From: Frankia nepalensis
Lineage (GTDB): Bacteria; Actinomycetota; Actinomycetes; Frankiales; Frankiaceae
Assembly: GCF_016786325.1 (NCBI RefSeq)
Contig: NZ_JADWYU010000097.1
Coordinates: forward strand, 90,684-154,683
DNA: 64,000 nt
Reading direction: 5' to 3'
Position 1 is the stretch's first letter. Each line of letters starts with the position of its first letter. Under the pieces are notes generated by a model that was not told where the DNA came from, searched no databases, and saw only the letters and a list, made by a program, of their open reading frames with translations. Positions 9,101 to 37,891 of the stretch are shown piece by piece. The position numbers were made by a program, and so were the translations under genes.

Positions 9101-12100
9101 CGGACGGGCTGATCCGGTTCACGGCGCCGGTGGCGCAGGACTATCTCGGGGTCGCGTTCCGGGTGCAGGACGCGAACAACATGTGGATCCTGCATGTCCA
9201 GCCCTCAAGCAACTCGCTGATCCTGGCCAAGCGGGTCGGCGGCGTCGGGACCCAGATCGCGACGTTCAGCGGCGCGTGCTGCGCGGCGACCGACACCTAC
9301 GCGGTGCGGATGGCCGGTTCCGACCTGACGGTCTATCGCAATGACCGGGTGGTCGGGTCGGTGACGGACGCGCAGTTCTCGACCGCGACGAAGGCGGGCC
9401 TGTTCGCGCTGAGCACGGGTTCGGGGCGGATCGGGTCGGTCACGATTCTCGACGACCAGCACCGCGACAGCTTCACCCGCGCCGACTCGTCCACCCTTCT
9501 CGGGGCGACGGACACCGGCGAGAAGTGGCAGACGCAGCCGCTGCCGGGGCTGGGCAACGGGACCTGGGGCATCTCCGGTAACGCGGCCTACCTGGCGACC
9601 GCGTCCGGGAACCGCAACATGGCCACGGTGTCGGCCGCCGCCGACGGCCAGTTCTCGTTCAAGATGCCGGTGGCACAGGCCGGTCTGGGGCTGGTGTTCC
9701 GGTATGCGGACCCGAACAACTACTGGCGGGTGGTGGCCCAGCCGTCGGCGGGGACGTGGCAGCTGGTCAAGCGGGTCGGCGGGGTCGAGACCGTGGTGGC
9801 CACGTCGAGCGGCGGGCTGTGCTGCACGGCGTCGGACACGATGACGGTCGTCACCAACGGGCCGAACATCTACGTCCAGCGCAATGGTTCCCAGATCCTG
9901 TCGACGAACGACCCGGCGGTGTTCTACGGGAGCCGGGCGGGCCCGTTCGCGGAGGCGACCGGCTCGGGGAGGATCGACGACTTCACCGCCACCGCCGCGG
10001 TGACGCTGACGGAGAAGTCCGGGGACGCGTACACCTTCCGGTCCGACGGCCGGCTCGCGAAGATCACCGACCCTGCCGGCCTGCAGTTGGAGCTGAACCA
10101 CAACAGCAACGCGCAGCTGACGTCGGTGGTGAACCTGACGACGCTGCGGACGCTGTCGTTCACCTGGACCGGCACCCACGTCACGAGCGTGTCCACGCAG
10201 AGCGTCGCCGCCCATTCCGGCCCGCTGACGTGGACCTACGCCTACGACGGCGACAAGATCACCTCGGTTGCCGGCCCGCACACGACCAGCCCGACGGAAT
10301 ATGACTACGCGTTCAACGGCAAGCTCGGGGCAATCACGCTGCCCGAGGGCAACGTCGACACGATCATCGGCTACAACCTCGATGGCACCGTGCAGTGGCG
10401 CGAGGACGGGCTTGGCAACCGCACCGAGTACGAGGTGCTGGCGACCAGCCCGAACACGATCGTCCGGGTGACCGACCCGCGCGACCACGAGACCGAGCAC
10501 GAGTACCGCGACGGCCAGCTGGTCGCGCAGCGGGACAACATCGGAAGCCGGCAGTTCGTCTACAACGACCGCGGCTTCCCGTACCAGGTCATCGACGAGA
10601 ACGGCAACATCGTCCAGACCGAGACCGACACCCGCGGCAACGTGATCGCCCGTTCGCAGGCCCGCGCCTATTACGGCGGCACGCTGTTCGTCAACACCGA
10701 GTACTACAACTACTACCTCGGCGCACCCGGCGACCCGCGCAACGACCTGGTCACGGTCCACCGGGACGCCCGCTCCGCGTCGCCGTCGGACAACACCTAC
10801 GCGACCTTCTACGGCTACAACAGCTTCGGGCACATGACGGCGCGGACGAGCCCGGCCGTCGCCGGCTTCCCCGGTGGCCGGACCGAGACATGGATCTACT
10901 CCACCGGCGCCGAGGCGGCGGTGGCCGGCGGCGGCACGATCCCGCGTGGCCTGGAGATCTCGCACACCGACACCCGCGGCAAGACGGACACCTCCGGCTA
11001 CGACGCCAAGGGCGACCTGCGCCGGGACCAGGACCCGGCCGGCCTGGTGCACGAGTACACCTATGACGAGATCGGCCGCGAGGTCACGTCGAAGGAGATC
11101 TCCGACACCTTCCCCGCCGGGCTGACCACCACTACCGCGTACACCAAGCTCGGCCTGGCCGCGCAGGTCACCGAGCCGGGCGTCACCAACCTGGTCACGT
11201 CGGTGGTGCACACCCCGGTCACCACCAACACCTACGACGCCAACGGCAACCTGACCCAGGTCACCGTGTCGGACGCCACCGGCGGGGACACCGCCCGCAC
11301 GACGTCCTACACCTATGACGACGCCGACCGGGAGACCTACAAGACCGTCGGCGCTGGCAGCTTCCCCTGGGCGACCTACGCGACGACCTACGACCCGAAC
11401 GGCAACGTAGCGACGACGACCGACCCGAACGGCACGGTCACCTCGTACACATATACGGCGCACAACCAGCTGGCGACCACGACGCTCGAGGACTTCGTCG
11501 ACGACCCGGTCGCCGGCAGCAGCCCTCGGGACGTGGTGCTGGAGTCACGGGCCTACGACCCGGCCGACCGGCTCGCGTCGGTCACCGATGCCGAGGGACG
11601 CGCCGTCCGCTACCAGTACTGGCTGGACGGCCTGGTGTTCCGGGAGATCCATGAGGGCTACCGGCCCCCGGACCTCGTCAACGGGGTCCTGTCCGGCCCC
11701 GCCGCCCGCGACATCATCCTCGCCGAGCACGTCTACGACGGCGCCGGCAACGAGATCACCGAGATCACCGACGGCGGGCTGCTCAAGACCTCGACCGAGT
11801 ACGACGCCGCCGGCCGGCCGACCGCCACCATCGTCGACCCGCAGGGCGTCGCCCGCCGGACCGACCTCACCTACGACGGCGGCGACAACGTCACCGCCAC
11901 CGAGCTGTCCGCCGCCGGCACGACGACGACCGAACGCGTCGAGTACACCTTCGACGACGTCTCCCGGCCGACGTCGACCACCGTGTTCGGCAACGGGGTC
12001 GAACGGTTCACCGAGGCGATGACCTACGACCAGCGCGGCGAGATGACCAGCAGGGTCGACCCCCGCGGCTATGTGTCGGGCGGGCCGCCCAACTCGGCCT

Positions 12101-15100
12101 ACGTGACCGACCACGTCAGCGACGCGGCCGGCAACCCGGCCCAGGCGATCCGCCCGTCGGTGCTGGTCGAGGAGAACGGCGCCGCGGCGACGTCGGACCG
12201 GCCGTCGGAGGAGGTCGGTTACAACACGTTCGGCGAGGTCACCCATGTGCGGGACGCCCGCAACCAGGTGACGGTCACCGCCTACGACCACCTGGGCCGG
12301 GTCACGCAGAAGACCTACCCGTCGTACACGCCGCCCGGCGGCGGCAGCGCGATCGTGCCCACCGAGTCGTGGAACTACGACGACAACGGCAACCCGACCA
12401 CTCACGTCGACACGCGCGGCAAGACGACCACCACCGTCTACGACAAGCGTGACCGGGTCGTCGCCGTCACCGACCCCCAGCTGGCCGGCGCGCCGGCGGC
12501 GGGTGTCACCCGGAAGGTCTACGACGACGTGGACAACCTGGTCTCGGAGGTCGACCAGGAGGACGGCTGGACGTTCTACGCCTACGACGACCTCGACCGG
12601 GTCTGGGCGACGACCGTCACCGAGCAGTGGCTGACCCAGACCTTCACGACCTACACCGTCTACAACGACGCCGACGACATCGTCCGGGTCCTCCTGCCCG
12701 CCAACGTCGCCACCGGCGCGTCGACGACGTCGACCTACAACGGCGCCGGTGACCGGATCGCCGTCCAGGACGAGCTCGGCAAGACCACCACCTACACCTA
12801 CGACCTCGCAGGCCGGGTCACGTCGGTCACCGACCCGCTGGGCCGGGAGACCCGCACCACCTACGACCGCGCCGGGCGCAAGACCACCGTCGCCGAGTAC
12901 TCACCCACCGACGTCCTGCTGCGCAGTACGTCGACCGGCTACGACGCGGCCGGCAACGTCGTCTCCGAGACCGACGCGAACGGCCACGCCGCGAGCGCGA
13001 CCTTCGACGCCCTCAACCAGCGGCGCACGATCGTCATCCCGATCGCGTCGGGCACGAGCGTCACCACGTCGGTCGGCTACGACCTGGCGGGCAACGCGAC
13101 CCGGGTCACCGACGGCCGGGGCAACGCGACCATCACGACCTACAACTCGCTGAGCCTGGTCGAGAAGATCATCGAGCCGTCCACGACCGCCCACCCGAAC
13201 CTGGCGGACCGGACCTGGACCACCACATACGACGCTGGCAGCCTGCCCGTCTCCGTCGTCGCCCCTGGCGGCGTCACCCGCACCTCCACCTATGACGCCC
13301 TCGGCCGGCTGACCGCCGAGTCTGGCAGCGGGGTGAGCACCCCCTCGGCGTCGCGGACGCTGGCCTACGACCTGGTCGGCCAGCTCGTCGCAGCTGACTT
13401 CCCGGGCGGGACGCAGTCGTTCACCTACAACGACCGCGGCCTGATCACCGGCGCCTCCGGCCCCGGCGGGACGAGCAGCTTCACCTACGACTCCACCGGC
13501 CGGATGAGCGGGCGCACCGACCCGGGCAGCTCGTCGACGTTCACCTACACGCCGCGCGGCGAACTGGCGACGGTGACCGGCACGGTCACCGGCGGTACTC
13601 GCACCCTCGGCTACGACGACGCCGGCCAGATCACCTCCGTCACCTACTCCGGCGCGACCCGGACGTTCGGCTACGACGACCTCGGCCGCACCATCTCCGA
13701 CACCCTCACCGGCCCCGGCGGCACCGTGCTGCGCGGCCAGTCCTACACCTACGACAACAACGACAACCGCCTGTCCACCACCCTCGGCCCCCTCGGGGTC
13801 GCCGGAGCCGGCACCCAGACCTACACCTACGACTGGGCCGACCGCCTCACCTCCTGGACCGACCAGGCCAACGTCACCACCACCTACGGCTGGGACGCGG
13901 CCGGCAACCGCACCTCCGAGAACGCGGCCGTCTCGACCTTCGACCAGCGCAACCGGCTGCTCTCGGACGGCACGTCGACCTACACCTACACGGCGCGCGG
14001 CACGCTGGCCACCACGACCGAGGGCTCCACGGTCACCACCACCAGCTTCGACGCCTTCGGCCGGCTGCTCGGCGACAACGAGGGTGGCACCCTCCAGACC
14101 TACACCTATGACGGGCTCGACCGGCTCGCCACCCGCGACAGCGCCCCCTTCACCTACGCCGGCCTCGAGAAGGAACCCGCCACCGACTGGAATTCGGCGT
14201 TCTCCCGCGACCCCGACGGCGACCTGGTCGCCATCGGCACGTCGTCCGGGAACTGGGCCACCGTCACCGATACCCACGGCGACCTCGTCGCGGCCTTCAC
14301 CACCGCGGGTGTCCTCACCGACAGCCGCAGCTACACCCCCTTCGGCGAGCCCGTCGTCGCCGGGAACCCGAACCTGCACATCGGCTACCAGGGCAGCTGG
14401 ACCGACCCCGACACCGACAAGGTCAACGCCCAGGCCCGCTGGTACACCCCCGACACCGGCACCTTCATCAGCCGCGACCCCGCGAACCTGCCCATCACCG
14501 GCACCGCCGCGTCCAACCGCTACACCTACGCCGCCGCCAACCCCCTCGCCTACAACGACCCCACCGGCTTCTGGTCCATCATCTCGGCCGTAAAAAAGGC
14601 CACCAAGGCGGTGACGCAGCGGTCCGCGGAGGTGGCCAGGGCCAGAAACGCCGGGCTGAGCCTGGAGGCGCAGCGGCAGATCGCCCAGATGGGCGAGGCC
14701 AGGTTCTGGGCCGGGGTCAGGGCGTCCCTCGCCGGGGTCAAGCCGGCCCCCCCGCCCCGCCCGGACCTGAGCGGCGCGGCGAACCGGCAGATCGCCCAGA
14801 TGGGGCAGAAGAACTTCTGGGACGGCGTGCGCGCGGCCCTCGCCTTCCAGGCAGCGGCCAAGAAGGCCGCGGCGGACAAGGCCGCCCGCGACAAGGCTGC
14901 GCGCGACAAGGCTGCCCGGGAGAAGGCTGCCCGTGAGAAGGCCGCCGCGGAGAAGGCAGCGGCCGAGAAGGCGAAGAAGAAATGCGGGCGGTTCGACTTC
15001 GGGTGCAAGGCGAAACAAGCCGTCAGCTCGGTGAAGGACAAGGCAAAGCAAGCCGTCACTTCCGTCAAGAAGAATGTTCAGACCGCGGGTAACTGGGTCG

Positions 15101-16044
15101 CGAAGAACAAGCTCGTGTCACTGTGCGCGAACTTCGCGCCCGGTTCGGTCGGCGCGGCCTGCGGCGGTGCCCAGGCTCTTGGCCACCTGGTCAACGGCCG
15201 TTACAAGGAAGCCGCCCTGTCCGCGGGCGGAGCCGTACTCGCCGGCGTCGGGGGAGGCGCCGCCAGAGGCGCTGTCGGCGGCGGCCTCTCCAAACTCGTC
15301 GCCAAGGGCTGTAAGAACAGCTTCACACCGGACACACCGGTCCTCCTCGCCGACGGCACATCCAAACCCATCGCCGACATCGACGTCGGCGATCGGGTCC
15401 TGGCCACCGACCCGGTGACCGGTCGCACCGAGCCCCACACCGTCACCAACCTCATCATCGGCCGCGGCGCCAAGATCCTCATCGACCTTGAGATCCAGAC
15501 CGACCGAGGCCCCGCGACCCTCACCGCGACTCACAATCATCCCTTCTGGGAAGCCGACGACCAGACCTGGACCGATGCCGAAGACCTAGATGCCGGCGAC
15601 ACCCTCCGCCAGCCCGACGGCACCACGGTCACGATCACTGGTACCGTCACCAGACACCAGACACAGGCCGTCTATAACCTCACCGTCGCCGACCTCCACA
15701 CCTACTACGTCCTCGTTGGCAAAAACCCTGTACTCGTCCACAACTGTAAAAAGAATCAAGGGGTTTACGAGTTCGCCGATCAGTGGAATCCGGGAAGCAC
15801 TTATGTCGGAAAAACGAGCGATTTTGACAAGCGACTCCAGCATCATATCGACACTGGAAGACTCCGGAGCCGGGCGGATGCCAAGTGTACTCACGTGTGC
15901 GGAAACGATGATGATCTGTTTGTCGCCGAGCACCTTCGGATCCAAGAACTGCGCGGCCAGGGCGTTCAACTTTCAAACCAGAGGGCTTCGCCCGGAAAGA
16001 AGATTTTGGAGCAAAGAGGCTTCCAGCAGTTGCGGCTCTGGTAG
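6187..16044 (+). CDS. Giant secreted RHS/YD-repeat polymorphic toxin with HINT domain and GIY-YIG nuclease tip
   Basis: A 3285-aa protein. Residues 27-50 form a membrane or signal segment after a basic N-terminus. Approximate domains: 400-580 DNRLRE-like beta domain (TWVSSA...YRPKMNITW); 600-700 immunoglobulin-like; 805-900 start of the RHS shell (DUF6531-like), interrupted at about 930-1270 by two LamG-like copies that each contain WGI and KRVGGV; 1280-2730 many YD repeats; 2735-2800 RHS core (ARWYTPDTGTFISRDP); 2897-2935 Lys/Ala repeats; 3042-3187 pretoxin HINT with first Cys3042, T3115-x-x-H3118 and terminal His3185-Asn3186-Cys3187; 3190-3285 GIY-YIG-type nuclease (Gly3192-Val-Tyr, Tyr3206-Val-Gly, Arg3216, Glu3248, Asn3264). 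The YD shell is expected to encapsulate the toxin, and HINT autoproteolysis would free the nuclease. ATG 6187 follows a CGGAG ribosome site. Cell-contact delivery is inferred. Confidence 0.9.
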   Translation: MTRRFLPVRRSLSFGRKMWRRHARVRRVALLLVPALLVSGVVVLVVDRVTDPDLVPISEQNPFRDVKLPESSNGTAEGLEQLVPAEVTSRDAAPDVAEVMARVPAMEGAVPASPEEKPREVVYPTGADAPVGEVILPEVPAGAELPLEEDLAAGVREPDGVQPGRVEVQAARTDNASVFRNPDGTYSTEVSTEPVRFQDEQGRWVEVDTGLEEQSGGGFEAKSVAAPVEIAAAADDAELARIELGDGLSAGFALEGAAASDGVADGESVTFAEVREQADLELSASASGLKEVIVLQSADAPTSWTFPLALEGLTAGLDRQGRVVLSDGSGAVVAVVPRGWMEDSSPGRATSEGVTYSLVEAEGTGQPALRVDLDAEWLGAPERVFPVRVDPTVTPVAAGADDTWVSSATPGTAQGSDGSLRVGLQGTGDENRAYVHFPNNSALQNANILSAQVSLYNTASHDACTAHPVSLYQVTQQWNGTTLTWPGASISGEVAQSTFSHQSGNGGCPAGWETFSDSRLTELVEDWNDGTAANHGLSVRASSWDATHYKEFASQNCACTAPGTAGDYRPKMNITWSPYDAVYSWPTGSPVWEQALTATQPGKIKVRITNRGKFTWPANGSYKLSYHVYDATGTTELVAQGFQTNLPVAVGRGQSVDVLATVTPPPAGSYIVKFDMQDTAAGGAFFSTHGISMLPVALVAPPAGGVQVTTSTPADAERVETLRPVLSLTGNQSGLTYEFQICSNPDAASGFCKSSGGFISSSSWQVPADEMSWGYPYYWRGRVKSGGTTSAWTPPSKIYAQVPSPPTSAHFGGDPYVPAEDSVSPLIRNYASSTTDISVAGVGPALGLTRTYNSLNSSVGMFGTGWSSQWDMGVRVDDAGEGNLVVRYPDGRDSRFGRNWDGTFTPQDGYYSLMQAPSPQVASFTGANHTSSLGTADTGESWQVLAGTWGINGNNAYLVSGSSASAVMPAPSDGLIRFTAPVAQDYLGVAFRVQDANNMWILHVQPSSNSLILAKRVGGVGTQIATFSGACCAATDTYAVRMAGSDLTVYRNDRVVGSVTDAQFSTATKAGLFALSTGSGRIGSVTILDDQHRDSFTRADSSTLLGATDTGEKWQTQPLPGLGNGTWGISGNAAYLATASGNRNMATVSAAADGQFSFKMPVAQAGLGLVFRYADPNNYWRVVAQPSAGTWQLVKRVGGVETVVATSSGGLCCTASDTMTVVTNGPNIYVQRNGSQILSTNDPAVFYGSRAGPFAEATGSGRIDDFTATAAVTLTEKSGDAYTFRSDGRLAKITDPAGLQLELNHNSNAQLTSVVNLTTLRTLSFTWTGTHVTSVSTQSVAAHSGPLTWTYAYDGDKITSVAGPHTTSPTEYDYAFNGKLGAITLPEGNVDTIIGYNLDGTVQWREDGLGNRTEYEVLATSPNTIVRVTDPRDHETEHEYRDGQLVAQRDNIGSRQFVYNDRGFPYQVIDENGNIVQTETDTRGNVIARSQARAYYGGTLFVNTEYYNYYLGAPGDPRNDLVTVHRDARSASPSDNTYATFYGYNSFGHMTARTSPAVAGFPGGRTETWIYSTGAEAAVAGGGTIPRGLEISHTDTRGKTDTSGYDAKGDLRRDQDPAGLVHEYTYDEIGREVTSKEISDTFPAGLTTTTAYTKLGLAAQVTEPGVTNLVTSVVHTPVTTNTYDANGNLTQVTVSDATGGDTARTTSYTYDDADRETYKTVGAGSFPWATYATTYDPNGNVATTTDPNGTVTSYTYTAHNQLATTTLEDFVDDPVAGSSPRDVVLESRAYDPADRLASVTDAEGRAVRYQYWLDGLVFREIHEGYRPPDLVNGVLSGPAARDIILAEHVYDGAGNEITEITDGGLLKTSTEYDAAGRPTATIVDPQGVARRTDLTYDGGDNVTATELSAAGTTTTERVEYTFDDVSRPTSTTVFGNGVERFTEAMTYDQRGEMTSRVDPRGYVSGGPPNSAYVTDHVSDAAGNPAQAIRPSVLVEENGAAATSDRPSEEVGYNTFGEVTHVRDARNQVTVTAYDHLGRVTQKTYPSYTPPGGGSAIVPTESWNYDDNGNPTTHVDTRGKTTTTVYDKRDRVVAVTDPQLAGAPAAGVTRKVYDDVDNLVSEVDQEDGWTFYAYDDLDRVWATTVTEQWLTQTFTTYTVYNDADDIVRVLLPANVATGASTTSTYNGAGDRIAVQDELGKTTTYTYDLAGRVTSVTDPLGRETRTTYDRAGRKTTVAEYSPTDVLLRSTSTGYDAAGNVVSETDANGHAASATFDALNQRRTIVIPIASGTSVTTSVGYDLAGNATRVTDGRGNATITTYNSLSLVEKIIEPSTTAHPNLADRTWTTTYDAGSLPVSVVAPGGVTRTSTYDALGRLTAESGSGVSTPSASRTLAYDLVGQLVAADFPGGTQSFTYNDRGLITGASGPGGTSSFTYDSTGRMSGRTDPGSSSTFTYTPRGELATVTGTVTGGTRTLGYDDAGQITSVTYSGATRTFGYDDLGRTISDTLTGPGGTVLRGQSYTYDNNDNRLSTTLGPLGVAGAGTQTYTYDWADRLTSWTDQANVTTTYGWDAAGNRTSENAAVSTFDQRNRLLSDGTSTYTYTARGTLATTTEGSTVTTTSFDAFGRLLGDNEGGTLQTYTYDGLDRLATRDSAPFTYAGLEKEPATDWNSAFSRDPDGDLVAIGTSSGNWATVTDTHGDLVAAFTTAGVLTDSRSYTPFGEPVVAGNPNLHIGYQGSWTDPDTDKVNAQARWYTPDTGTFISRDPANLPITGTAASNRYTYAAANPLAYNDPTGFWSIISAVKKATKAVTQRSAEVARARNAGLSLEAQRQIAQMGEARFWAGVRASLAGVKPAPPPRPDLSGAANRQIAQMGQKNFWDGVRAALAFQAAAKKAAADKAARDKAARDKAAREKAAREKAAAEKAAAEKAKKKCGRFDFGCKAKQAVSSVKDKAKQAVTSVKKNVQTAGNWVAKNKLVSLCANFAPGSVGAACGGAQALGHLVNGRYKEAALSAGGAVLAGVGGGAARGAVGGGLSKLVAKGCKNSFTPDTPVLLADGTSKPIADIDVGDRVLATDPVTGRTEPHTVTNLIIGRGAKILIDLEIQTDRGPATLTATHNHPFWEADDQTWTDAEDLDAGDTLRQPDGTTVTITGTVTRHQTQAVYNLTVADLHTYYVLVGKNPVLVHNCKKNQGVYEFADQWNPGSTYVGKTSDFDKRLQHHIDTGRLRSRADAKCTHVCGNDDDLFVAEHLRIQELRGQGVQLSNQRASPGKKILEQRGFQQLRLW
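14875..14964 (+). repeat. 15-nt in-frame tandem repeat encoding a Lys/Ala/Arg helix
   Basis: Six 15-nt units (starting at 14875, 14890, 14905, 14920, 14935 and 14950) plus a partial seventh encode DKAAR/EKAAR/EKAAA. The product is a highly charged helical linker between the RHS core and the pretoxin module. Just before it, a 25-residue motif containing RQIAQMG is also duplicated (about 14670 and 14785). Confidence 0.85.
15748..16044 (+). other. Variable toxin tip of the RHS protein: GIY-YIG nuclease domain
   Basis: The last 98 residues follow directly after the HINT terminal HNC. GVYEF, TYVGKTSDFDKRLQHH, VAEHLRIQ and LSNQR supply the Gly-x-Tyr, Tyr-x-Gly, Arg, Glu and Asn landmarks of GIY-YIG endonucleases in the right order. 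By eye this stretch is much less GC-rich and uses more A/T-ending codons than the YD-repeat body, as expected for an exchangeable toxin cassette. The target could be DNA or RNA. Confidence 0.7.
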
Positions 16045-27497: not shown

Positions 27498-27613
27498 CCC
27501 GACCACAGGGCTCGCGGGTGGGCTCCGGTGGGCGGCGGACTCGCTTCGCCGACCCGTCGGTGACGGTCCGGCCGCGCCGCGGTACCGGTGTTCCACCTCA
27601 TGAAGGACGTGTC

Positions 27614-29023
27614 ATGGACAGATCATCCCGATTACGGCGGCTCGGTGTCCTCGCCGTGGTGGCCGTCCTGGCCGCCGCCTGTGGCTCGGGCGACCGCGGC
27701 GCGAATCCTGACGGGGGAGGCGGCGGCCAGGCGACCACCTCCGCGCCGGCCGCGGCGGCCTTCGGGGACCTGCCGAGCCCGTGCGGCGGCGGTGACGCCA
27801 AGGGCGCCACGGACCAGGGGGTCACCGACACCAGCATCACCATCGCCTACGGGGACGACCGCGGCTTCACCGGCAGCCCCGGCCTCTCGCACGAGATCGG
27901 CGACGCGGTCAAGGCGATGATCGGTTGGTGCAACGAACAGGGTGGGATCAACGGTCGCGAGATCGTCGGTGACTTCTACGACGCCAAGATCACCGAGACC
28001 AACAACGTGATGACCGAGGCCTGCGGATCCGCCTTCATGCTGGTCGGCCAGGGGTGGGCGTTCGACTCGACCGGCGAGCAGACCCGGGTGGCCTGCAATC
28101 TGGTGTCGGTCCAGACCTACTCGGTGAGCCCGGAGTTCGCCAACGGCCCGATGCAGTACCAGGCCGTGCCCAACCCGGCGGACGAGACCGTCGGCGCGTT
28201 CTTCGCCCAGTTCGCCAAGCTGCATCCCGACAAGATCAAAAAGGCCGCCCAGTACACCACCACGCTCGCCACCGAGAACTACTCGACCAGGCGTGGCGTG
28301 GAGGCCGCCAGGCCGTTCGGCTGGGAATGGCTGCCCTGTACGCAGACCGTCAACTACTTCGGCGAGCCGGACTACAAGCCGTTCATGCAGAAGCTGAAGG
28401 ACTGCGGGGCGGAGGTGGTCTGGTTCACCCTCTCGGCCGGCCCGCAGCTGTACAACGCGCTGCAGGCCGCCAACCAGGTCGACTTCCATCCGATCTGGCT
28501 GACGGAGACCAACAACTACGTCAGGGGCTTCGCCGAGTTCAACTCCAACGGCCTCGCGGACAACGTCTACGTCCGCACGGCCTATGTCCCGATGGAGCAG
28601 GCCGACCGGGTCCCGGCGGTGAAGCAGTACATCGAGATCGTCGAGGCCGACGGTGGCGACACCAGCCAGCTGGGGATGCAGGCGACCTCGTCGTTCCTGC
28701 TGTGGGCGACGGCAGCGAAGAAGTGCGGGTCGACGCTGACGCGGCAGTGCATGGTCAACGAGCTGTCGAAGGTCACGGAGTGGACGGGCGGCGGCCTGCA
28801 CGCGGCGACCAACCCCGGGGAGAACCATGGCCCGGAATGCGGCATGCTGCTGCGCATGAAGGGAACCGAGTACGTCCAGGAGTTCCCGGAGAAGGTTGGC
28901 GAGTTCGACTGCTCGCCGAGCTACACCGTGAAGCTTCCGGATGACTTCGTGACCGTGGAGCTGACCGCCGACCGGATTTCCACGAACTACCTGACGGACA
29001 AGGTCATCAAGCCGCAGGCCTAG
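27614..29023 (+). CDS. Branched-chain amino-acid-type ABC substrate-binding lipoprotein
   Basis: A 469-aa type I periplasmic-binding protein (Peripla_BP_6/Leu-Ile-Val class) anchored outside the membrane. The signal peptide ends in a lipobox, LAAAC (Cys about 22), and a Gly/Ala linker follows. The binding core starts at VTDTSITIAYGDD. The ligand could be amino acids, amides, urea or aromatic acids; binding residues cannot be assigned by reading. ATG 27614 has AAGGA 7 nt upstream. It is the first gene of a five-gene import operon; a long hairpin between it and the permease may lower downstream expression. Confidence 0.9.
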   Translation: MDRSSRLRRLGVLAVVAVLAAACGSGDRGANPDGGGGGQATTSAPAAAAFGDLPSPCGGGDAKGATDQGVTDTSITIAYGDDRGFTGSPGLSHEIGDAVKAMIGWCNEQGGINGREIVGDFYDAKITETNNVMTEACGSAFMLVGQGWAFDSTGEQTRVACNLVSVQTYSVSPEFANGPMQYQAVPNPADETVGAFFAQFAKLHPDKIKKAAQYTTTLATENYSTRRGVEAARPFGWEWLPCTQTVNYFGEPDYKPFMQKLKDCGAEVVWFTLSAGPQLYNALQAANQVDFHPIWLTETNNYVRGFAEFNSNGLADNVYVRTAYVPMEQADRVPAVKQYIEIVEADGGDTSQLGMQATSSFLLWATAAKKCGSTLTRQCMVNELSKVTEWTGGGLHAATNPGENHGPECGMLLRMKGTEYVQEFPEKVGEFDCSPSYTVKLPDDFVTVELTADRISTNYLTDKVIKPQA

Positions 29024-29040
29024 GCACGGTTGTCACCCGG

Positions 29041-29108
29041 CCTCCCGGACCGCCGGCCCGCCTTTTCGGCGAAGCCGATGTGACGAAATCCGTCGCCGGT
29101 CCGGGAGG
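29041..29108 (+). promoter_or_regulatory. Large stem-loop between binding-protein and permease genes
   Basis: CCTCCCGGACC (29041-29051) pairs with GGTCCGGGAGG (29098-29108). A small nested hairpin (TCGGC-GAA-GCCGA) lies near 29066-29078. Intercistronic structures at this place in importer operons often protect the binding-protein mRNA or attenuate the permease genes. Confidence 0.5.
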
Positions 29109-29318
29109 AGCCCGTCCACCGCCCCCTCTGACCCACGGCGCGGCGGACGGGCTGGACCCGGACCCGCGCGGCCGGTGGGTTTCACCAGGCCCGCACCCAG
29201 GATCCGCGCGATCAGGCAGGCCACCACTGGGCCTTTTCCAGCGCGCGAGGGCCGAGCCCTCGTACCCCCGGCGCGGGGGCGACGGAGAAGGACCACTCGA
29301 GAACGGGTTGGCTCCGCA

Positions 29319-31679
29319 GTGGACCAGTTTCTGCAGTACACGATTCTCGGCCTGGTGCTGGGCGGGATCTACGGAATCGCCGCCTCGGGCCTGGTCCTGA
29401 CGTGCACCACGTCCGGTGTCTTCAACTTCGGCCATGGCTCGATCGCGATGCTGTCGGCGTTCCTCTACTGGCAGGTCCGGTTCGACTGGAACTGGCCCAC
29501 CCCGGTCGCGCTCGTGGCTGTGCTCGGCGTGTTCGCGCCCGCCTTCGGCGCGCTGCTGCACATCACGATCATGCGAGGCCTCCGGGAGACCACGGAGATC
29601 ACCAGAATCACGGTGACCGTCGCGCTGACCGTCGGCGCGCTCGCCCTGGCGAACTGGATCTGGGACCCGACCGTCCCCCGCCGGTTCGACTACTTCTTCG
29701 GCGGCACCAACCAGGTCAAGATCTTCGGCAGCCGGATCACCTATCACGAGCTGCTCGCGCTCGCCGCGGCGGTGCTGATCGCGGTCGGGCTGCGCTTCTT
29801 CTTCTACCGGACCCGCACCGGCGTCGGCATGCGCGCGGTCGTCGACGACCCGCCGCTGCTGCAGCTCACCGGCGGCCGCCCGGAGCGGCTGGCCACGCTG
29901 TCCTGGGCGCTCGGCGCGATGCTCGCGGCGCTCGCCGGCATCCTCATCACGCCGATCCTGGGCGGCGCGCTCGACCCGAACGCGCTGACGCTGCTCGTCA
30001 TCGACGCGTTCGCCGCCGCCGTGTTCGGCCGGCTGCGCAGCGTGCCGCTGACGTTCCTCGGCGCGGTCGTGCTCGGGCTGGCGAACAACTACGTGCTCGC
30101 GTACTTCCCGAGCGAGCGGTGGACGTGGACGTCGAACTTCCGGATCTCGCTGCCGATGATCCTGCTCTTCGTCGTGCTGCTGGTGCTGCCGCAGGACCGG
30201 CTGCGCGGCGGCACGATCACCAGGGCCAGGGAGCGGTTCCGGGTGCCGACGATGCGCTCGGCCGTGGTCTGGGCGGTCATCCTGGTCGTCGGGATGTTCC
30301 TCCTGCGGGAGATCATGGCGCCGGCGGTCGTCAACACGATGGTCATCGGGATGACCTTCGCGGTCATCGCGCTGTCGCTCGTCCCGTTGACCGGCTACGC
30401 GGGGGAGATCAACCTGGCCCCGGTGTCCTTCGGCGCGATCGGCACGATCATCGCTTACCACTACGGCGTCACCGGCAGCGGCGTGGACACCCGGATGACG
30501 GTCTGGGGCCTGCTGCTCGCCGCCGCGGTGTGCGCGGTGGTGGGCGCGCTCGTCGCGCTTCCGGCGCTGCGCCTGCGCGGCCTCTACCTGGCCCTGGCCA
30601 CCATGGCGTTCGGCGTGTTCGTCTCGACGATGGTCGTGGCCGACACCGTCCCCCGGGTGCTGCCACTGCTGCACGTCGAGTTCTCGATCTTCCCGAACGG
30701 AACGCTCAACGTCCCGCGGCCCAGGCTGGGCCCGATCGACCTCGCCGACGGCGGCACGTTCCTGATGGTCATCACCGTCCTGTTCGCCGTGCTCGGCGTG
30801 CTGATGGTCGCGCTGCGGCGCAGCGGCTACGGGCACCGACTGGTCGCGCTGAAGGACAGCCCCGCGGCCTGCGCCACGCTGGGGCAGAACCCGGTCCGCC
30901 TCAAGCTGTCGGTGTTCATGCTCTCGGCCGCGATCGCGGGTCTCGGCGGCGCGCTGATGTCGGCCGCGATGGTGTCCGTCAACCCCGACCGCTTCGTCAT
31001 CTTCGTCAGCCTCGGGCTGGTCATGACGGTGGTCGTCGCCGGCATCGGCTACGTCAGCGGGGCGTTCGCCGGCGGCCTGCTCGCCGGAGTGGGCTTCGTG
31101 GCCCTGCAGAACATGTTCGACAAGGTTGGCACCGACCATGCCAGCCTGAGTTCCCTGTTCTCGTTCCTCAGCCAGTTCTCGACCGTGCTGCCCGCGTTGA
31201 TCGGTATCGGGCTGGCCCGCAACCCGACCGGCTTCGTCGACGACATCATCAGGGCCTTCGAGGTGTTCCGGCGCGCCCGGGTCATGCTGGCCGCCGGGCT
31301 GGCCCTGCAGGCCGCCATCTACCTGCTCGCCTACACCGACACGTTCAGCAACTGGTGGTTCGTCGCGCTCACCGTGCTGTTGTGGGGGATCTGGCCGCGT
31401 ATCACCCCGCTGGTGTCGGACCGGTTGGCCCCGGCGGTCAGGGCCCGGCGCGCCGGCGCGGGCGCCCTTCCGGCCGGCCCGGCAGACGGCCCGGCCGAGG
31501 TGCCCCTCGAGCTCGTCGGCGTGGACGTCCCCCTCACGGACGAGCACCGGAGGGTGCTCGACCGCGCGCTGGGCCTGCCCGAGACCGCGGCTTTGCCCGG
31601 CGACCTGGCCGCTGTGCCCGGAAGGGTGACCCCGTCGGCCGGGATCCCGCCGGCCGGGACGCTGGTACCCGCGCCATGA
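29319..31679 (+). CDS. Fused LivH-LivM ABC transporter permease
   Basis: About 786 aa. The N-terminal half (residues 1-290) is LivH-like, starting FLQYTILGLVLGGIYGIAASG, with the coupling region near LRSVPLTFLGAVVLGLANNY. The second half (about 330-690) is LivM-like (MTFAVIALSLVPLTGYAGEINL; LYLALATMAFGVFV; the EAA-like GYGHRLVALKDSPAACATLG). The final 90 residues form an Ala/Pro-rich cytosolic tail. One polypeptide thus supplies both membrane subunits of the channel, a fusion known in actinobacteria. Start GTG 29319 gives VDQFLQYT; the ribosome site is weak. It is followed 21 nt later by the LivG ATPase. Confidence 0.85.
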   Translation: MDQFLQYTILGLVLGGIYGIAASGLVLTCTTSGVFNFGHGSIAMLSAFLYWQVRFDWNWPTPVALVAVLGVFAPAFGALLHITIMRGLRETTEITRITVTVALTVGALALANWIWDPTVPRRFDYFFGGTNQVKIFGSRITYHELLALAAAVLIAVGLRFFFYRTRTGVGMRAVVDDPPLLQLTGGRPERLATLSWALGAMLAALAGILITPILGGALDPNALTLLVIDAFAAAVFGRLRSVPLTFLGAVVLGLANNYVLAYFPSERWTWTSNFRISLPMILLFVVLLVLPQDRLRGGTITRARERFRVPTMRSAVVWAVILVVGMFLLREIMAPAVVNTMVIGMTFAVIALSLVPLTGYAGEINLAPVSFGAIGTIIAYHYGVTGSGVDTRMTVWGLLLAAAVCAVVGALVALPALRLRGLYLALATMAFGVFVSTMVVADTVPRVLPLLHVEFSIFPNGTLNVPRPRLGPIDLADGGTFLMVITVLFAVLGVLMVALRRSGYGHRLVALKDSPAACATLGQNPVRLKLSVFMLSAAIAGLGGALMSAAMVSVNPDRFVIFVSLGLVMTVVVAGIGYVSGAFAGGLLAGVGFVALQNMFDKVGTDHASLSSLFSFLSQFSTVLPALIGIGLARNPTGFVDDIIRAFEVFRRARVMLAAGLALQAAIYLLAYTDTFSNWWFVALTVLLWGIWPRITPLVSDRLAPAVRARRAGAGALPAGPADGPAEVPLELVGVDVPLTDEHRRVLDRALGLPETAALPGDLAAVPGRVTPSAGIPPAGTLVPAP

Positions 31680-31700
31680 CTCCCACCCTGGAGGCACGCC

Positions 31701-32483
31701 ATGGCCTTGCTTGAAACCGACTCCATCGCGGTCAGGTTCGGCGGCAACGTCGCTCTCGACGACGTGTCCATCTCCGTCGCGGCCGGCCGGGTGACCGGGC
31801 TGATAGGCCCGAACGGCGCCGGCAAGACCACCCTCTTCAACATTGTCACCGGCCTGCTGGCCCCGACCCGAGGGCGGGTACTCGTGGACGGTGCGGACAT
31901 AACCCGCCTGCCGCCCTACAAACGGGCGCACCGCGGGCTCGCCCGCACGTTCCAGCGCCTCGAACCGTTCGTGTCGCTCTCCGTCCGCGACAACGTCCGG
32001 GTCGCGGGCCAGATCCGCGACACGTGGCGCCGCCGAGGCTCCCTGGGGATCGGCAAGGCCGACCCCAGGGGCCGTGGTCGCCTCGACCTCGACCGGGAGA
32101 CGGACCGGGTCCTCGAGCTGGTCGGCCTCACCGACGTCGCCGACCGGGACGTCGCCGAGCTGCCGACGGGCCAGGCACGCCTGGTCGAGCTGGGCCGGGC
32201 GCTGATGACCAGGCCCGGGGTGCTGTTGCTGGACGAGCCGGCCTCAGGCCAGACCGAGCAGGAGACCGAGGCGTTCGGGCGGCTGCTGCGCCGGCTCGCC
32301 CAGGAGGACGGCATCGCGGTCTGCCTCGTCGAGCACGACGTCGGCCTGGTCATGGACGTGTGCGCCATGATCTATGTGCTCGACTACGGCAGGGTCATCG
32401 CGGCGGGGCCGCCCGACGTGATCCGGGCCGATCCGGCCGTCATCGACGCCTATCTGGGCTCCGCCGAAGAGGGCGCCGCGTGA
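31701..32483 (+). CDS. livG: LivG-type ABC transporter ATP-binding protein
   Basis: A 260-aa ATPase that drives import with LivF. Walker A GPNGAGKT lies at residues 36-43, Walker B GVLLLDEPASG and the H-loop VEHDV are intact. The LSGGQ signature is replaced by LPTGQ (AELPTGQARLVELGRAL), a variant seen in actinobacterial LivG proteins. A Liv-specific ARTFQRLEPF and a long helical insert (31990-32100) are present. ATG 31701 has GGAGG 9 nt upstream. It overlaps livF by four bases. Confidence 0.92.
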   Translation: MALLETDSIAVRFGGNVALDDVSISVAAGRVTGLIGPNGAGKTTLFNIVTGLLAPTRGRVLVDGADITRLPPYKRAHRGLARTFQRLEPFVSLSVRDNVRVAGQIRDTWRRRGSLGIGKADPRGRGRLDLDRETDRVLELVGLTDVADRDVAELPTGQARLVELGRALMTRPGVLLLDEPASGQTEQETEAFGRLLRRLAQEDGIAVCLVEHDVGLVMDVCAMIYVLDYGRVIAAGPPDVIRADPAVIDAYLGSAEEGAA

Positions 32484-33301
32484 GCACCGACATGGCCGCC
32501 ACCGCGGCTGCCGGCCCGGTACCCGGCAAAGGCGCCGGCATCGAGCCGCCGCTGCTGGAACTGGCCGGCGTCCGCGCCGGGTACGGCCCGATCGAGGTCC
32601 TGCACGGGGTCGACCTCGCGGTGCCGGCCGGTTCCGTCGTCGCCCTGCTTGGCCCGAACGGCGCCGGCAAGACCACCACGCTGAACGTCTGCTGCGGCCT
32701 GCAGCGGCCGTCGAGCGGCGAGCTCCGGCTCGCCGGCCGGTCCGTCACCGGGGCCTCGGCGGAGACGCTGGCGCGGCTCGGAGTGTGCACGATCCCGGAG
32801 CGGCGGGGCATCTTCCCGAACCTCACCGTCCGCGAGAACCTGTGGATGATGACTCAGGCCCGTTCCTGGCCACGGGGTAAACAGGCCCGTTCCTGGTCAC
32901 GGGGTGCACAGGCCCAGCCTGGCGTCTCCCTGCGGGACGTCGAGGAAATCGCGTACGCGCGCTTCCCGGTGCTCGGTGAGCGGCGTGGGCAGCTGGCCGG
33001 CACCCTGTCCGGTGGCCAGCAGCAGATGCTGGCGCTGACCAGGGCCCTCGGAACCGACCCGGCGGTGCTGCTGCTGGACGAGCTGTCGATGGGGCTCGCC
33101 CCGCGGGTCGTCCGCGAGCTGTACGAGATCGTCGGCCGGCTGGCGGCCGAGGGCATGTCGATTCTCATCGTGGAGCAGTTCGCCCGCACGGTTCTGCCGA
33201 TCGCCGACCAGGTGGCCCTCATGCTCCATGGCCGGATCGTGAACGTGGGTGCACCGTCGGAGGTGGAGGAGCATCTCTCCGCCGCGTATCTGGGAGCGTG
33301 A
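32480..33301 (+). CDS. livF: LivF-type ABC transporter ATP-binding protein with a duplicated insert
   Basis: A 273-aa ATPase with Walker A GPNGAGKT, signature LSGGQQQM, Walker B AVLLLDELSMGL and H-loop VEQF, all intact. GTG 32480 overlaps the livG stop (GTGA), so the two are translationally coupled. The family is usually about 235 aa; the excess is an N-terminal Ala/Gly extension and an insert after LTVRENLWMM, where QARSWPRGK is repeated as QARSWSRGA. This insert is a 27-bp tandem duplication in the helical subdomain that contacts the permease. No effect on ATP-binding residues is expected. Confidence 0.92.
   Translation: MSTDMAATAAAGPVPGKGAGIEPPLLELAGVRAGYGPIEVLHGVDLAVPAGSVVALLGPNGAGKTTTLNVCCGLQRPSSGELRLAGRSVTGASAETLARLGVCTIPERRGIFPNLTVRENLWMMTQARSWPRGKQARSWSRGAQAQPGVSLRDVEEIAYARFPVLGERRGQLAGTLSGGQQQMLALTRALGTDPAVLLLDELSMGLAPRVVRELYEIVGRLAAEGMSILIVEQFARTVLPIADQVALMLHGRIVNVGAPSEVEEHLSAAYLGA
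32855..32908 (+). repeat. 27-bp in-frame tandem duplication in livF
   Basis: Units 32855-32881 and 32882-32908 differ at about four bases; a partial third unit (CAGGCCC) follows at 32909. They encode QARSWPRGK and QARSWSRGA. Confidence 0.9.
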
Positions 33302-33945: not shown

Positions 33946-35136
33946 TCAGGCCGGGCGGGGAGTGGCCAGGGAACGGGCGTTGTCGCGCAGGACGAGGCGG
34001 CGGTCGGCGGGAGACAGCGGCTTGGCCTCGGGCAGGTAGTCGAGCGGCTGGGGCAGGGCCTCGATGTGCGGCCAGTCCGAGCCGAAGATCACCCGGTCGG
34101 CGCCGACCCACTCGACGACGGCGGTCAGGTCGTCCTCCCAGAACGGGTTGATCCAGACGTGCCGCCGGAAGATCTCGACCGGGTCCTCCCTGAACCAGCC
34201 GGGCAGCTTGCGGGCCTGCGAGCGCAGCTTGCGGAAAAGGTCGGGGAGGAACTCCGCGCCGTTCTCGACCGAGGCGACCCGCAGGTTCGGGTACTTCGCG
34301 AAATGGTTCGCGAGCACCATCGACAGCAGGTAGTCGTGCACCGCCTTCTCGATCGCGAAGCTCTTGATGGTCGGCCCGTAGCTCGCGCCGGAGAAGCTGA
34401 AGCTGTGGCCGTCGTCGGCGTACCCGTCGGAGGAGGCCCCGCTGTCGCCGGCGTGCACGACCAGCGCCAGGCCGGACTCGTTCAGCCGGGCCCAGAACGG
34501 GGCGAACATCGGGTCGAACGGGTTGCGCCGGCCGAGCACCGTCGTGGGCGCCCCGGCGCGCATGACGATCATGCGCGCGCCCGCGTCGATCGCCCACTCC
34601 AGCTCCTCGACCGCCCAGTCGACGTCGGCGAGCGACAGGTAGGGCGCCGAGATGATCCGGTCCTGGTAGTCGAGGGTCCAGTCCTCCGCCAGCCAGCGGT
34701 TGAACGCCCGGAAGGTCTTGCACACCGCCACCGGGTCGTGCCTGAGCGGCTCCTCGTAGATCATCCCGAGCGTCGGGAACAGGAAGCAGCCCTCGAGCCC
34801 CTGCTCGTCGAGGACCCGCAGGCGGGCCGCTGGGTCGTGATACTCGGGGCGGATCGGCTCGCTGTCGCGGATCAGGTCGAGCGGGTTGACCTTGTCGGGG
34901 TTGCCGCGGAAATACGAGGCCAGGCAGCCGGGCTTGGAAATCGGGTCGAACGTCGCGTTGGATACCGCCCGGCTGACGCGCCCGCCTAATACGTGGTACT
35001 GCCGGCCGTTGATCGTCGCCCACTGCACACAGCGCGGCCCGTCCCGCGGGTCGAGATGCCGGGTGAAGGCGTCGACCGCCTCGTAGTAGTGGTTGTCCGC
35101 GTCCCACACCGGGTGCTCAAGCTCGTCCACACCCAA
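33946..35136 (-). CDS. COG2159 amidohydrolase (TIM-barrel metal-dependent hydrolase)
   Basis: About 396 aa. A DADNHYYE motif at the N-terminus replaces the usual HxH strand, and later LVVHAGDSG and VIFGSDWPH supply His and Asp metal ligands. The family includes aminocarboxymuconate-semialdehyde decarboxylase relatives acting on carboxylates or CoA-linked ring-opened products. In actinomycetes many copies sit in steroid and aromatic catabolic loci. TTG 35136 is the longest start, but GTG 35130 (VDELEHPVW) is as likely. A KstR-type 14-mer ends a few bases upstream (35141-35154), hinting at a leaderless message under TetR-type repression. The convergent neighbour is the Liv-type operon. Confidence 0.85.
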   Translation of the reverse strand: MGVDELEHPVWDADNHYYEAVDAFTRHLDPRDGPRCVQWATINGRQYHVLGGRVSRAVSNATFDPISKPGCLASYFRGNPDKVNPLDLIRDSEPIRPEYHDPAARLRVLDEQGLEGCFLFPTLGMIYEEPLRHDPVAVCKTFRAFNRWLAEDWTLDYQDRIISAPYLSLADVDWAVEELEWAIDAGARMIVMRAGAPTTVLGRRNPFDPMFAPFWARLNESGLALVVHAGDSGASSDGYADDGHSFSFSGASYGPTIKSFAIEKAVHDYLLSMVLANHFAKYPNLRVASVENGAEFLPDLFRKLRSQARKLPGWFREDPVEIFRRHVWINPFWEDDLTAVVEWVGADRVIFGSDWPHIEALPQPLDYLPEAKPLSPADRRLVLRDNARSLATPRPA

Positions 35137-35140
35137 ATCG

Positions 35141-35154
35141 TAGAACGTGTTCTA
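35141..35154. promoter_or_regulatory. KstR-type operator upstream of the amidohydrolase
   Basis: TAGAACGTGTTCTA has perfect 6-bp arms around GT and fits the KstR consensus TnnAACnnGTTnnA exactly. It lies 5-11 nt upstream of the amidohydrolase start, ideal for repression. KstR is the TetR repressor of sterol catabolism in mycobacteria and rhodococci; no kstR gene is in the window. Confidence 0.7.
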
Positions 35155-35290
35155 GTAGTGGTGCTTGCCTTCTCCGTGCCCGAACCCGCTCGACGCGCTG
35201 GCCGGTGGTCCTGGACCGCGGTTCGACGAACCATGCGGCCGGTTCCGCTCGAATCCCGGCGCGCCGCCGTCGGTCAAGCCCCGGCGGCGG

Positions 35291-35803
35291 TCAGGTGCCA
35301 CGGGTGCGGGTGAGGGCGAGTTCGCCGGCGCGGACCCGATCGAGGTTGGTGCCGACCGCCTCGACGACATACGGCAGCGAGGCGGTCAGCTCGGCGGCGG
35401 ACTCCTCGTAGTCGGCCAGACCGGGGACGCCCGCGGCGGCGAGCAGCGCCAGCGGGTCGGCGAGCCGCTCGCGCAGCCAGCCGAGCGGCTCCGCGACGAT
35501 GGCTTCGTCGAAGACCCGGTCGCCGGGCTCGTTGTCGGCCATGGTCGGGTGGTGGTGCATCCGGTCCTTGCTGCCCGGCCCGCGCTCGATCGACTCGAAC
35601 AGGTCGACACGCAGCAGCGCGGTGTCGACGACGAGCTTCTGGGCCGCGTAGATCGAGCCGCGCCACGGCTGCGGCTCGACGAGCCGCAGTTCGACGCGCA
35701 CCCCCCGCTCGGCCCCCTCCTGCCCCGGGATCGGATCCGGGTCGATGAAGTACATGTCCCGGACGGTCACCGCCAGCCGGTCGAAACAGAAGACGCTGAG
35801 CAT
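35291..35803 (-). CDS. Conserved-looking hypothetical protein between KstR-linked genes
   Basis: The 170-aa product is unrecognised. It has a compact, well-balanced sequence (MLSVFCFDRLAVTVRDMYF; SIYAAQKLVVDTALLRVDLF; KDRMHHHPTMADNEPGDRVF) and no signal or membrane segment. The HHHP motif could bind metal. ATG 35803 follows an excellent GGAAGGG ribosome site. It sits 158 nt downstream of the enoyl-CoA hydratase and upstream of the amidohydrolase, all on the minus strand. It may therefore be a catabolic accessory, but no function is claimed. Confidence 0.75.
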   Translation of the reverse strand: MLSVFCFDRLAVTVRDMYFIDPDPIPGQEGAERGVRVELRLVEPQPWRGSIYAAQKLVVDTALLRVDLFESIERGPGSKDRMHHHPTMADNEPGDRVFDEAIVAEPLGWLRERLADPLALLAAAGVPGLADYEESAAELTASLPYVVEAVGTNLDRVRAGELALTRTRGT

Positions 35804-35961
35804 CGGTCACCCTTCCGACGTTCGCCCGACGACCGCGCGCCGCGCGCCGGGGACCGGGCTCCGTGGCCCGCGCCCGTGCCGCGGGGCGTCGCTCCCTCAG
35901 CGTCGCCCGTCCGCCGGCCAAAGTCGACCGGCTGCGCCGATCCGGCCCGCGCCGCGCCAGG

Positions 35962-36777
35962 TCAGGTCCCGGTGAAGACGGGCTCGCGCTTCTCCAGGAA
36001 GGCCACCGGGCCCTCGACCGCGTCCCCGGAGCGCATGACGGCGTTGCCGTACCGCTCCTCGATCGGCCAGGCCTCCGCCTCGGGCAGGCACTCGGTGTCG
36101 CGCAGCGTCGCGAGGATGGCCTTCACCGCCAGCGGGCCGTTGCGGGCGATCCGGTCGGCGATCTCGCGAGCCTTCGCCAGTGCCTGCCCGTCCGGCACCA
36201 CGTGGTTGACCAGTCCCAGCTCGTGGGCGCGGCGCGCGGGCAGGTCCTCGCCGGTCAGCAGCATCTCGGCGGCGACCGCGTAGCCGATCTGCCGGCGCAG
36301 CCGCACCGCCGACCCGGCCAGCGGGAACAGCCCACGCTGCACCTCGGTCACGCCGAACACGGCGCTCTCCCCGGCGACCCGGATGTCGGTGCCCTGCAGG
36401 ATCTCGGTGCCGCCGGCGCGGGCGAACCCCTCCGCGGCCAGGATGATCGGCTTGGCCGGTCGGCGCTTCTTCAGGAACGCCTTCAGCGTGATGCTCGGGT
36501 CGTCCTGCAGTCGGCTGATCCACTCGTTGTCGCGCACGCCGGCGCGCAGCCGGCCGATCTCGGCCAGGTCCATCCCGGCGCAGAACGTCGGGCCCTTCCC
36601 GGTCAGGATGCCGACCCGCAGCGAGTCGTCCTCGTCGAGGCGGCCCCAGGCGTCGTAGAGGCGGCAGAGCACCTCCGCGTTCGTCGCGTTGCGCTTCTCG
36701 GGCCGGTTCAGTGTCACGGTCAGCACCGGCCCGTCGGCCTCGACCAGCACCAACGGCTCCGCCCCGGACTCGCCCAC
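35962..36777 (-). CDS. Enoyl-CoA hydratase/isomerase (crotonase) family protein
   Basis: A 271-aa crotonase-fold enzyme. Oxyanion-hole residues lie in TFCAGMDLAE and ARAGGTEILQGTD. Glu in AGGTE and Glu in FGVTEVQRGLFP match the two catalytic glutamates of hydratases, so hydration of an enoyl-CoA in beta-oxidation is likely. I prefer GTG 36777 because GGAGGAGGG lies 7 nt upstream; ATG 36795 would add six residues. A KstR-type 14-mer (36804-36817) is just upstream, pointing to steroid or isoprenoid side-chain breakdown. It is the first gene of a minus-strand trio. Confidence 0.9.
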   Translation of the reverse strand: MGESGAEPLVLVEADGPVLTVTLNRPEKRNATNAEVLCRLYDAWGRLDEDDSLRVGILTGKGPTFCAGMDLAEIGRLRAGVRDNEWISRLQDDPSITLKAFLKKRRPAKPIILAAEGFARAGGTEILQGTDIRVAGESAVFGVTEVQRGLFPLAGSAVRLRRQIGYAVAAEMLLTGEDLPARRAHELGLVNHVVPDGQALAKAREIADRIARNGPLAVKAILATLRDTECLPEAEAWPIEERYGNAVMRSGDAVEGPVAFLEKREPVFTGT

Positions 36778-36803
36778 GCGCCCTCCTCCAGCCATCACCC
36801 AAC

Positions 36804-36817
36804 TAGAACGTGTTCCA
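36804..36817. promoter_or_regulatory. KstR-type operator upstream of the enoyl-CoA hydratase
   Basis: TAGAACGTGTTCCA matches TnnAACnnGTTnnA and differs from the site at 35141 by one base. It lies 27 nt before the preferred GTG start of the hydratase. Both sites are also followed by the shared string TTGGGTG in the minus-strand reading direction. Confidence 0.65.
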
Positions 36818-36926
36818 CCGGCTGGTTCCGGACGATATGCCACCCCTGCCCCGCCCACAAGTCGCCCCGGCCATGGCCGCGCCAGGGCGGGAGGGCTGCC
36901 AGACAGGGAGGGTGGGGACCGCCCGA

Positions 36927-37697
36927 TCAGGCAACGGGTGGCTGGGCGGCGGTGTGGTCGGCGTCGGTGTGGTCGACGGTGGCGAACCAGCGGACCCAGC
37001 GGCGCTGGCCGGGGGTTTCGACGGCGCGGGGGCGGTAGTGGCGGCGGGTCCAGGCAACCGCGTCGTCGGCCGGGTGGCCGGCGAGGATCGCCATGCAGGC
37101 GATGACCGTGCCGGTGCGGCCGTTGCCGCCGCCGCAGGCGACCTCGACGCGCCGCCCGGCCCGGGCGAGCTCATAGGTCTGTGTGATGGCCTTCGCCGCC
37201 GTCTGGGCGTCACGAGGGGTGCGGAAGTCCGGCCAGTCGAGCCACAGCATGTCCCAGCGGACCTCCTGGATCGGCAGCCGGCCTCCCGCCGGATCCAGGG
37301 TGCCCGCCCGATCGGCGGCAGGGTCCCCTCCGGACCGGCGGAGCCCTGGGTTCCAGCCGGATCGGCGGAGCCCGGGGTCCCTGTCGGATCGGCGAAGCCG
37401 ATCTGGGAGATCTGCTGGAAGCTCTGCGGGGAGGTCTGCTGGAAGGTCGGCGATCGCGGAAGTCGGGACGCCGATCTGGGAGGTCGGCGATCCAGGAGGA
37501 ACTCCCGGCTCCGCCGTGCCGCGCCGCGCGGCACCGCGCCGCGGCAGCCCGCGTGACCTGCCAAGATAGAGCCCGAACTCCGGTGTCGAACCGTCTGGCA
37601 GCCCCTCCCGTCGCCCGCGCCCTCGAACCAGGGTCCCATCAGGCAGCTGGATCGCTCCGCTCAGTGGTGCACTCACACTCGTAGTGTGCACGGTCAC
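36927..37697 (-). CDS. Protein-tyrosine/dual-specificity phosphatase-like protein with repeat insert
   Basis: About 256 aa from GTG 37697 (TTG 37742 and GTG 37691 are alternatives). The phosphatase loop CGGGNGRT holds Cys188 and Arg194, and the WPD general-acid motif is present as DWPDF (Asp157), so it should be active. Histidine before the Cys is replaced by Ala. An insert of about 85 residues (LPADLPAELPADLPD; repeated RRSxxxPGL) splits the N-terminal GAIQLPDGTLV region from the catalytic half and is built from 24- and 27-bp DNA repeats. Substrate unknown; it is a single gene divergent from the aldo/keto reductase. Confidence 0.75.
   Translation of the reverse strand: MTVHTTSVSAPLSGAIQLPDGTLVRGRGRREGLPDGSTPEFGLYLGRSRGLPRRGAARRGTAEPGVPPGSPTSQIGVPTSAIADLPADLPAELPADLPDRLRRSDRDPGLRRSGWNPGLRRSGGDPAADRAGTLDPAGGRLPIQEVRWDMLWLDWPDFRTPRDAQTAAKAITQTYELARAGRRVEVACGGGNGRTGTVIACMAILAGHPADDAVAWTRRHYRPRAVETPGQRRWVRWFATVDHTDADHTAAQPPVA
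37330..37410 (-). repeat. Three 27-bp tandem repeats in the phosphatase gene
   Basis: Units 37330-37356, 37357-37383 and 37384-37410 share the core CGGAYCGGCGRAGCC and encode RRSxxxPGL-type nonapeptides on the minus strand. A second pair of about 24 nt sharing TCTGCTGGAAG follows near 37411-37455. Confidence 0.85.
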
Positions 37698-37891
37698 CAC
37701 CGACCGCCATCGCTCGGCCGGTAAGTCTTGAGATAACCGCAAAACTGTCGCCTCATGTAATTAATTGATTTCGTCGGGCGGCTTGGGGGAGCGGCCGGCG
37801 GATGGCCCTACCGCGTGCGTCGCGGCGGCCAGGCGCGCGCGCATTGGAGGGTCGGGGCGCGCGGGGCGGCGTGTTGGCGTTGACTAAGAGC

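Follow-up and report, generated by a model that had tools for sequence, protein, structure and literature searches.

A predicted KstR-type regulon in Pseudofrankia, with paired operators before an EchA19-like hydratase gene and an amidohydrolase gene

The closest described counterpart of the locus considered here is the KstR regulon of Mycobacterium tuberculosis and M. smegmatis (Rv3574), in which a 14-bp palindrome stands beside the starts of the controlled genes; the mycobacterial regulon includes echA19, fadE26, fadE27, fadD19, ltp3 and ltp4 (PMC1995591). The ligand reported for mycobacterial KstR is 3-hydroxycholest-5-en-26-oyl-CoA (PMC6678751). According to a comparison published in 2012, KstR arose in the common ancestor of Mycobacterium and Rhodococcus (PMC3388012), and later work has already reported KstR sites in Nocardioides (PMC7807495); no earlier description of a KstR-type regulon in Pseudofrankia was found in the open-access literature searched. 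A KstR protein and operators that are conserved across this genus of the Frankiaceae, a nodule-associated lineage, would thus widen the known range of the regulator.

The stretch of DNA analysed here (the window: 64 kb of contig G000:C111 of a 10.7-Mb source genome) contains two exact matches to TnnAACnnGTTnnA, the same sequence as that of published KstR sites such as ATTAGAACGTGTTCTAATTT and ATTAGAACGTGTTCCACCTG (PMC1995591). No others occur in the window, the expected number is 0.04, and none of 100 shuffles gave two. The first-pass annotation had placed each palindrome just before a start codon, and this is borne out by their distances of 8 and 10 nt (Table 1); like genes under KstR control, those of the hydratase and the amidohydrolase therefore have a 14-bp palindrome near their start. 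The same annotation had the two operators flanking a single island of three genes. The three genes do run on one strand (-), but operator 2 lies inside the trio, and the single island gives way to two units with one operator each. Since one operator heads the hydratase gene and the other the amidohydrolase gene, there are probably two promoters, the first serving the hydratase gene together with the gene of a 170-aa protein and the second serving the amidohydrolase gene alone.

Table 1. Features of the trio and its control regions (positions in the window)
Feature	Position	Strand	Details
EchA19-like enoyl-CoA hydratase, 277 aa	35962..36795	-	Pfam ECH_1
170-aa protein, no family placed	35291..35803	-	between hydratase and amidohydrolase
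Amidohydrolase_2 metal-dependent hydrolase	33946..35130 (GTG start 35130)	-	Pfam PF04909
KstR-type operator 1	36804..36817		TAGAACGTGTTCCA, TGGAACACGTTCTA in gene direction; 8 nt 5' of hydratase ATG
KstR-type operator 2	35141..35154		TAGAACGTGTTCTA; 10 nt 5' of amidohydrolase GTG
Possible -10 element TATCGT of hydratase promoter	36832..36837	-	overlaps invariant box ATCGTCCG
Proposed -10 element TACGAT	35137..35142	-	6 nt before amidohydrolase GTG; first two bases common to operator 2

Both operators are in place in all six Pseudofrankia congeners that hold the trio, and operator 1 precedes the hydratase gene in a seventh genome of the genus as well. Only one of the twelve congener sites deviates, namely the amidohydrolase operator of G002 (TAGAACGCATTCTA, with one core mismatch). 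Pairwise identity is 0.92 and 0.90 within the two 14-mers but falls to 0.45 and 0.47 over the 40 nt that precede them, and the distance from operator 2 to the GTG is exactly 10 nt wherever the amidohydrolase gene occurs (7/7, the six congeners and the source genome).

EchA19 (Rv3516; PDB 6wyi, 4f47) is the closest solved relative of the window hydratase, whose best PDB match is 6wyi (1.9e-77, full length) and which lies above the cut-off of NCBIfam PRK07799. Against the NCBIfam EchA19 equivalog model it reaches 339 bits, below the cut-off of 400. A second EchA19-like gene, found after ChsE4 in all eight Pseudofrankia genomes, is nearer to EchA19 at 397-398 bits, so that the window hydratase is probably a diverged EchA19 paralogue. 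In M. smegmatis, EchA19 is dispensable for sterol side-chain degradation (PMC6273163). Another hydratase of the source genome (L204, G000:C99:77326-78123) is 82% identical to that of the window, and has no operator, 170-aa gene or amidohydrolase homologue within 1.5 kb. Two genomes of the sister genus g2 carry an EchA19-like gene with TAGTACGTGTTCTA, one base off the palindrome, about 50-85 nt upstream (L197, 1427-1440; L198, 2358-2371). The amidohydrolase scores 89 bits against PF04909, for which the cut-off is 26.4, and matches the 'putative TIM-barrel metal-dependent hydrolase' 4dzi (9.4e-92), a close relative over the full length, whose entry name gives no substrate; to our knowledge, none is known for either protein.

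At the amidohydrolase gene, the layout operator-TA[CA]GAT-n6-GTG is kept in seven of seven genomes, which suggests that TA[CA]GAT serves as a -10 element and that the transcript is leaderless; a simple sigma-70 scan found no full promoter there. The published operator of the mycobacterial kstR gene likewise overlaps the -10 region (PMC1995591). Ahead of the hydratase gene, the box ATCGTCCG (36836-36829, - strand) lies 11-17 nt upstream of operator 1 and is invariant in 8/8 genomes; it is possibly part of a -10 element (TATCGT) or else a site for another protein.

Beyond the window, TnnAACnnGTTnnA occurs at 30 places genome-wide as compared with 15 for the control, a count that is weak by itself, and a stricter pattern, TRGAACNNGTTCYA, was therefore needed. 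The latter has 57 matches in the eight genomes against 8 for its reversed control, or 5-9 per Pseudofrankia genome, in comparison with the 16 and 31 motif instances published for the mycobacterial regulon. A KstR-like regulon, as proposed by the first-pass annotation, implies further sites near CoA-catabolic genes, and such sites were found at ChsE4/ChsE5, an acyl-CoA ligase, an aldehyde dehydrogenase/F420-type pair, short-chain dehydrogenases/reductases (SDRs) and a ChsH2/thiolase cluster. When targets are grouped by orthology, an F420-type luciferase-like oxidoreductase with an aldehyde dehydrogenase recurs in 8/8 genomes, in several of which only a few kb separate its site from kstR, and SDR genes stand behind a site in 8/8; the EchA19-like hydratase, the amidohydrolase and an acyl-CoA ligase are recurrent targets too, and others appear in fewer genomes. 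A site also heads a divergent pair of acyl-CoA dehydrogenase genes whose products match 4x28_A (2e-149, 500 bits) and 4x28_D (2e-87, 297 bits); 4x28 we take to be ChsE4-ChsE5 of M. tuberculosis. ChsE4 is present in all eight genomes, each time with an exact or one-mismatch site. In the source genome, two one-mismatch KstR sites at L045 (G000:C70, 6705-6718 and 6874-6887) separate a branched-chain-type ABC transporter and a ChsE-type dehydrogenase pair from a ChsH2-type protein and a thiolase. As in a KstR regulon, sites thus stand before genes of the sterol side-chain type, those of the ChsE4/ChsE5 and ChsH2/thiolase clusters.

A regulator to match these sites is available. The best PDB matches of the TetR protein encoded at G000:C222:4024-4683 are to M. 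tuberculosis KstR (107 bits, the next distinct protein scoring 70), and by these best-match scores it is a KstR orthologue. Orthologues with 79-89% identity are present in 7/7 other genomes of the genus, so that the kstR gene on which the first-pass proposal depended is found in all eight; a profile search of genome contigs built on the KstR alignment gave matches mainly within the same genus. Upstream of kstR, TAGAACAGGATCTA is invariant in 8/8 genomes and one base off the TAGAACnnGTTCTA palindrome, a near-site that fits self-repression as in mycobacteria. The mycobacterial and Pseudofrankia systems thus have in common a near-site ahead of kstR itself, and sites at genes of the EchA19, ChsE4/ChsE5 (FadE26/27) and ChsH2/thiolase types; they differ in that no HsaC was found in Pseudofrankia and in that the trio adds the 170-aa protein and the amidohydrolase. 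The conserved sites, the KstR orthologue and the occurrence of the same palindrome before ChsE4/ChsE5 and the other genes point to a KstR regulon of the sterol-side-chain type, and, judged by sequence comparison, it is a real KstR-type regulon of the ordinary kind. Very probably, the two palindromes are operators of the KstR encoded at G000:C222:4024-4683, which would repress the trio and other sets of acyl-CoA genes until released by an acyl-CoA.

We infer from sequence that KstR binds the sites, in which direction it acts, what serves as inducer and that the 170-aa gene is co-transcribed, and the following scheme is proposed. A KstR dimer would sit on each of the two palindromes. At the amidohydrolase gene it would cover the start of TA[CA]GAT, the -10 element of the leaderless promoter, and at the hydratase gene it would be placed downstream of the likely promoter and ahead of the start codon; with KstR in these positions, transcription would be blocked. 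A bulky acyl-CoA of the sterol-side-chain type, on building up, would bind KstR and cause its release, and all three genes of the trio would then be switched on. In the source genome, ChsE4/ChsE5, the acyl-CoA ligases, the aldehyde dehydrogenase/F420-type oxidoreductase, the SDRs and the ChsH2/thiolase cluster would be turned on together with them.

The sterol part of the first-pass proposal is supported only in part, in that enzymes of the side-chain type are there and the ring-cleavage dioxygenase HsaC is not. The HsaC search covered the source genome, the complete G001 and G002, the two-contig G006, and G005; the best score in these five Pseudofrankia genomes was 22 bits in the source genome and 32 in any congener, as compared with 485 for the Mycolicibacterium positive control. 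The BphC/HsaC family model TIGR03213 gave at best 49 bits in the source genome. G004 encodes a full-length BphC-type enzyme (235 bits; best PDB matches BphC and 2zi8, mycobacterial BphC/HsaC). Rieske proteins of the KshA-type family PF19298 are present, as distant KshA relatives only (103-125 bits, in a search run without a positive control). Because HsaC is absent and the KshA-like proteins are only distant, the full sterol pathway in its classical form is probably lacking. Most of the genus is thus unlikely to have a classical 9,10-seco pathway, and with HsaC missing, complete classical sterol catabolism is not supported.

This raises the question as to whether the KstR operators serve a substrate that is not a sterol, such as a branched isoprenoid, a hopanoid or a plant triterpenoid side chain, handled by enzymes of the sterol-side-chain type. 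Such a substrate, to which we give a little less than an even chance, can be reconciled with the KstR-operator explanation and rivals its sterol part only. It would account for the failure to find HsaC in G001, G002, G006, G005 and the source genome while ChsE4/ChsE5 are present, and KstR may, according to a review, respond to molecules other than cholestenoyl-CoA (PMC6678751). However, the ChsE4/ChsE5 homologues are near to the sterol enzymes in their scores, and the ring could open by another route than those searched for. A more tentative suggestion, possible but on balance doubtful, is that the KstR regulon has become uncoupled from sterol-ring breakdown and governs an acyl-CoA pathway for side chains only (of sterols, hopanoids or plant triterpenoids), to which the 170-aa protein and the amidohydrolase would contribute new steps. 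As a small natural regulon that lacks HsaC, the system would allow the inducer and the role of the side-chain enzymes to be studied apart from ring degradation.

The identity of the repressor can be questioned as well, as the palindromes might be operators of a different TetR regulator with the KstR recognition sequence, whether a paralogue of KstR or a local acyl-CoA repressor. The genus genomes encode dozens of other TetR regulators, many with a similar helix-turn-helix; two more in the source genome exceed the cut-off of PF17925, a C-terminal domain family that KstR also matches, and KstR paralogues have been found in more distant actinomycetes (PMC3388012). Yet among the TetR proteins listed, the KstR orthologue alone is kept at 79-89% in all genomes, its gene has the invariant near-copy of the site upstream, and in several genomes it is a few kb from the aldehyde dehydrogenase/F420-type site, which makes a different regulator improbable. 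Chance palindromes without function, of which some isolated and non-conserved genus-wide matches (for example L039, L128 and L151) may be instances, deserve next to no credence here and are rejected on the strength of the shuffles and of a position that 6-7 other genomes have kept although the flanking DNA has diverged.

The membership of the 170-aa protein, which the first-pass annotation had assigned to the regulon, is one by position: its gene is located between both operators in six congeners and, by this placement, belongs to the hydratase unit. It begins after a 158-nt gap behind the hydratase gene and has its own ribosome site, and its co-transcription we infer from this arrangement. 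Searches of Pfam, NCBIfam and PDB sequences with the protein returned no match, and a fold search with its predicted model, which is of moderate confidence (pLDDT 75), returned no solved fold. Further homologues, from the sister genus g2 and from three g10 genomes, have no KstR-type site nearby; the one core-pattern match near these relatives, TTCAACATGTTCAA, lies about 890 bp upstream in L170. Neither P0003 nor P0001 homologues were detectable beside them in the DNA covered, which extended 1.5 kb or less to each side. Lacking both a KstR-type site and these homologues, the g2 and g10 contexts are of no help in placing the protein. As a testable guess, the Pseudofrankia arrangement would link a family of 170-aa proteins to acyl-CoA catabolism.

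Around the trio, an ABC transporter of the branched-chain-amino-acid type adjoins it at 27518-33301, where no KstR-like site was found, in contrast to the similar transporter on C70 with its KstR-like sites, and a gene of the dual-specificity/protein-tyrosine phosphatase type lies upstream of the hydratase gene at 36927-37742. Farther away in the window, 6187-16044 encodes an RHS-repeat protein of 3285 aa that is of the polymorphic-toxin type and carries a pretoxin HINT domain close to its end.
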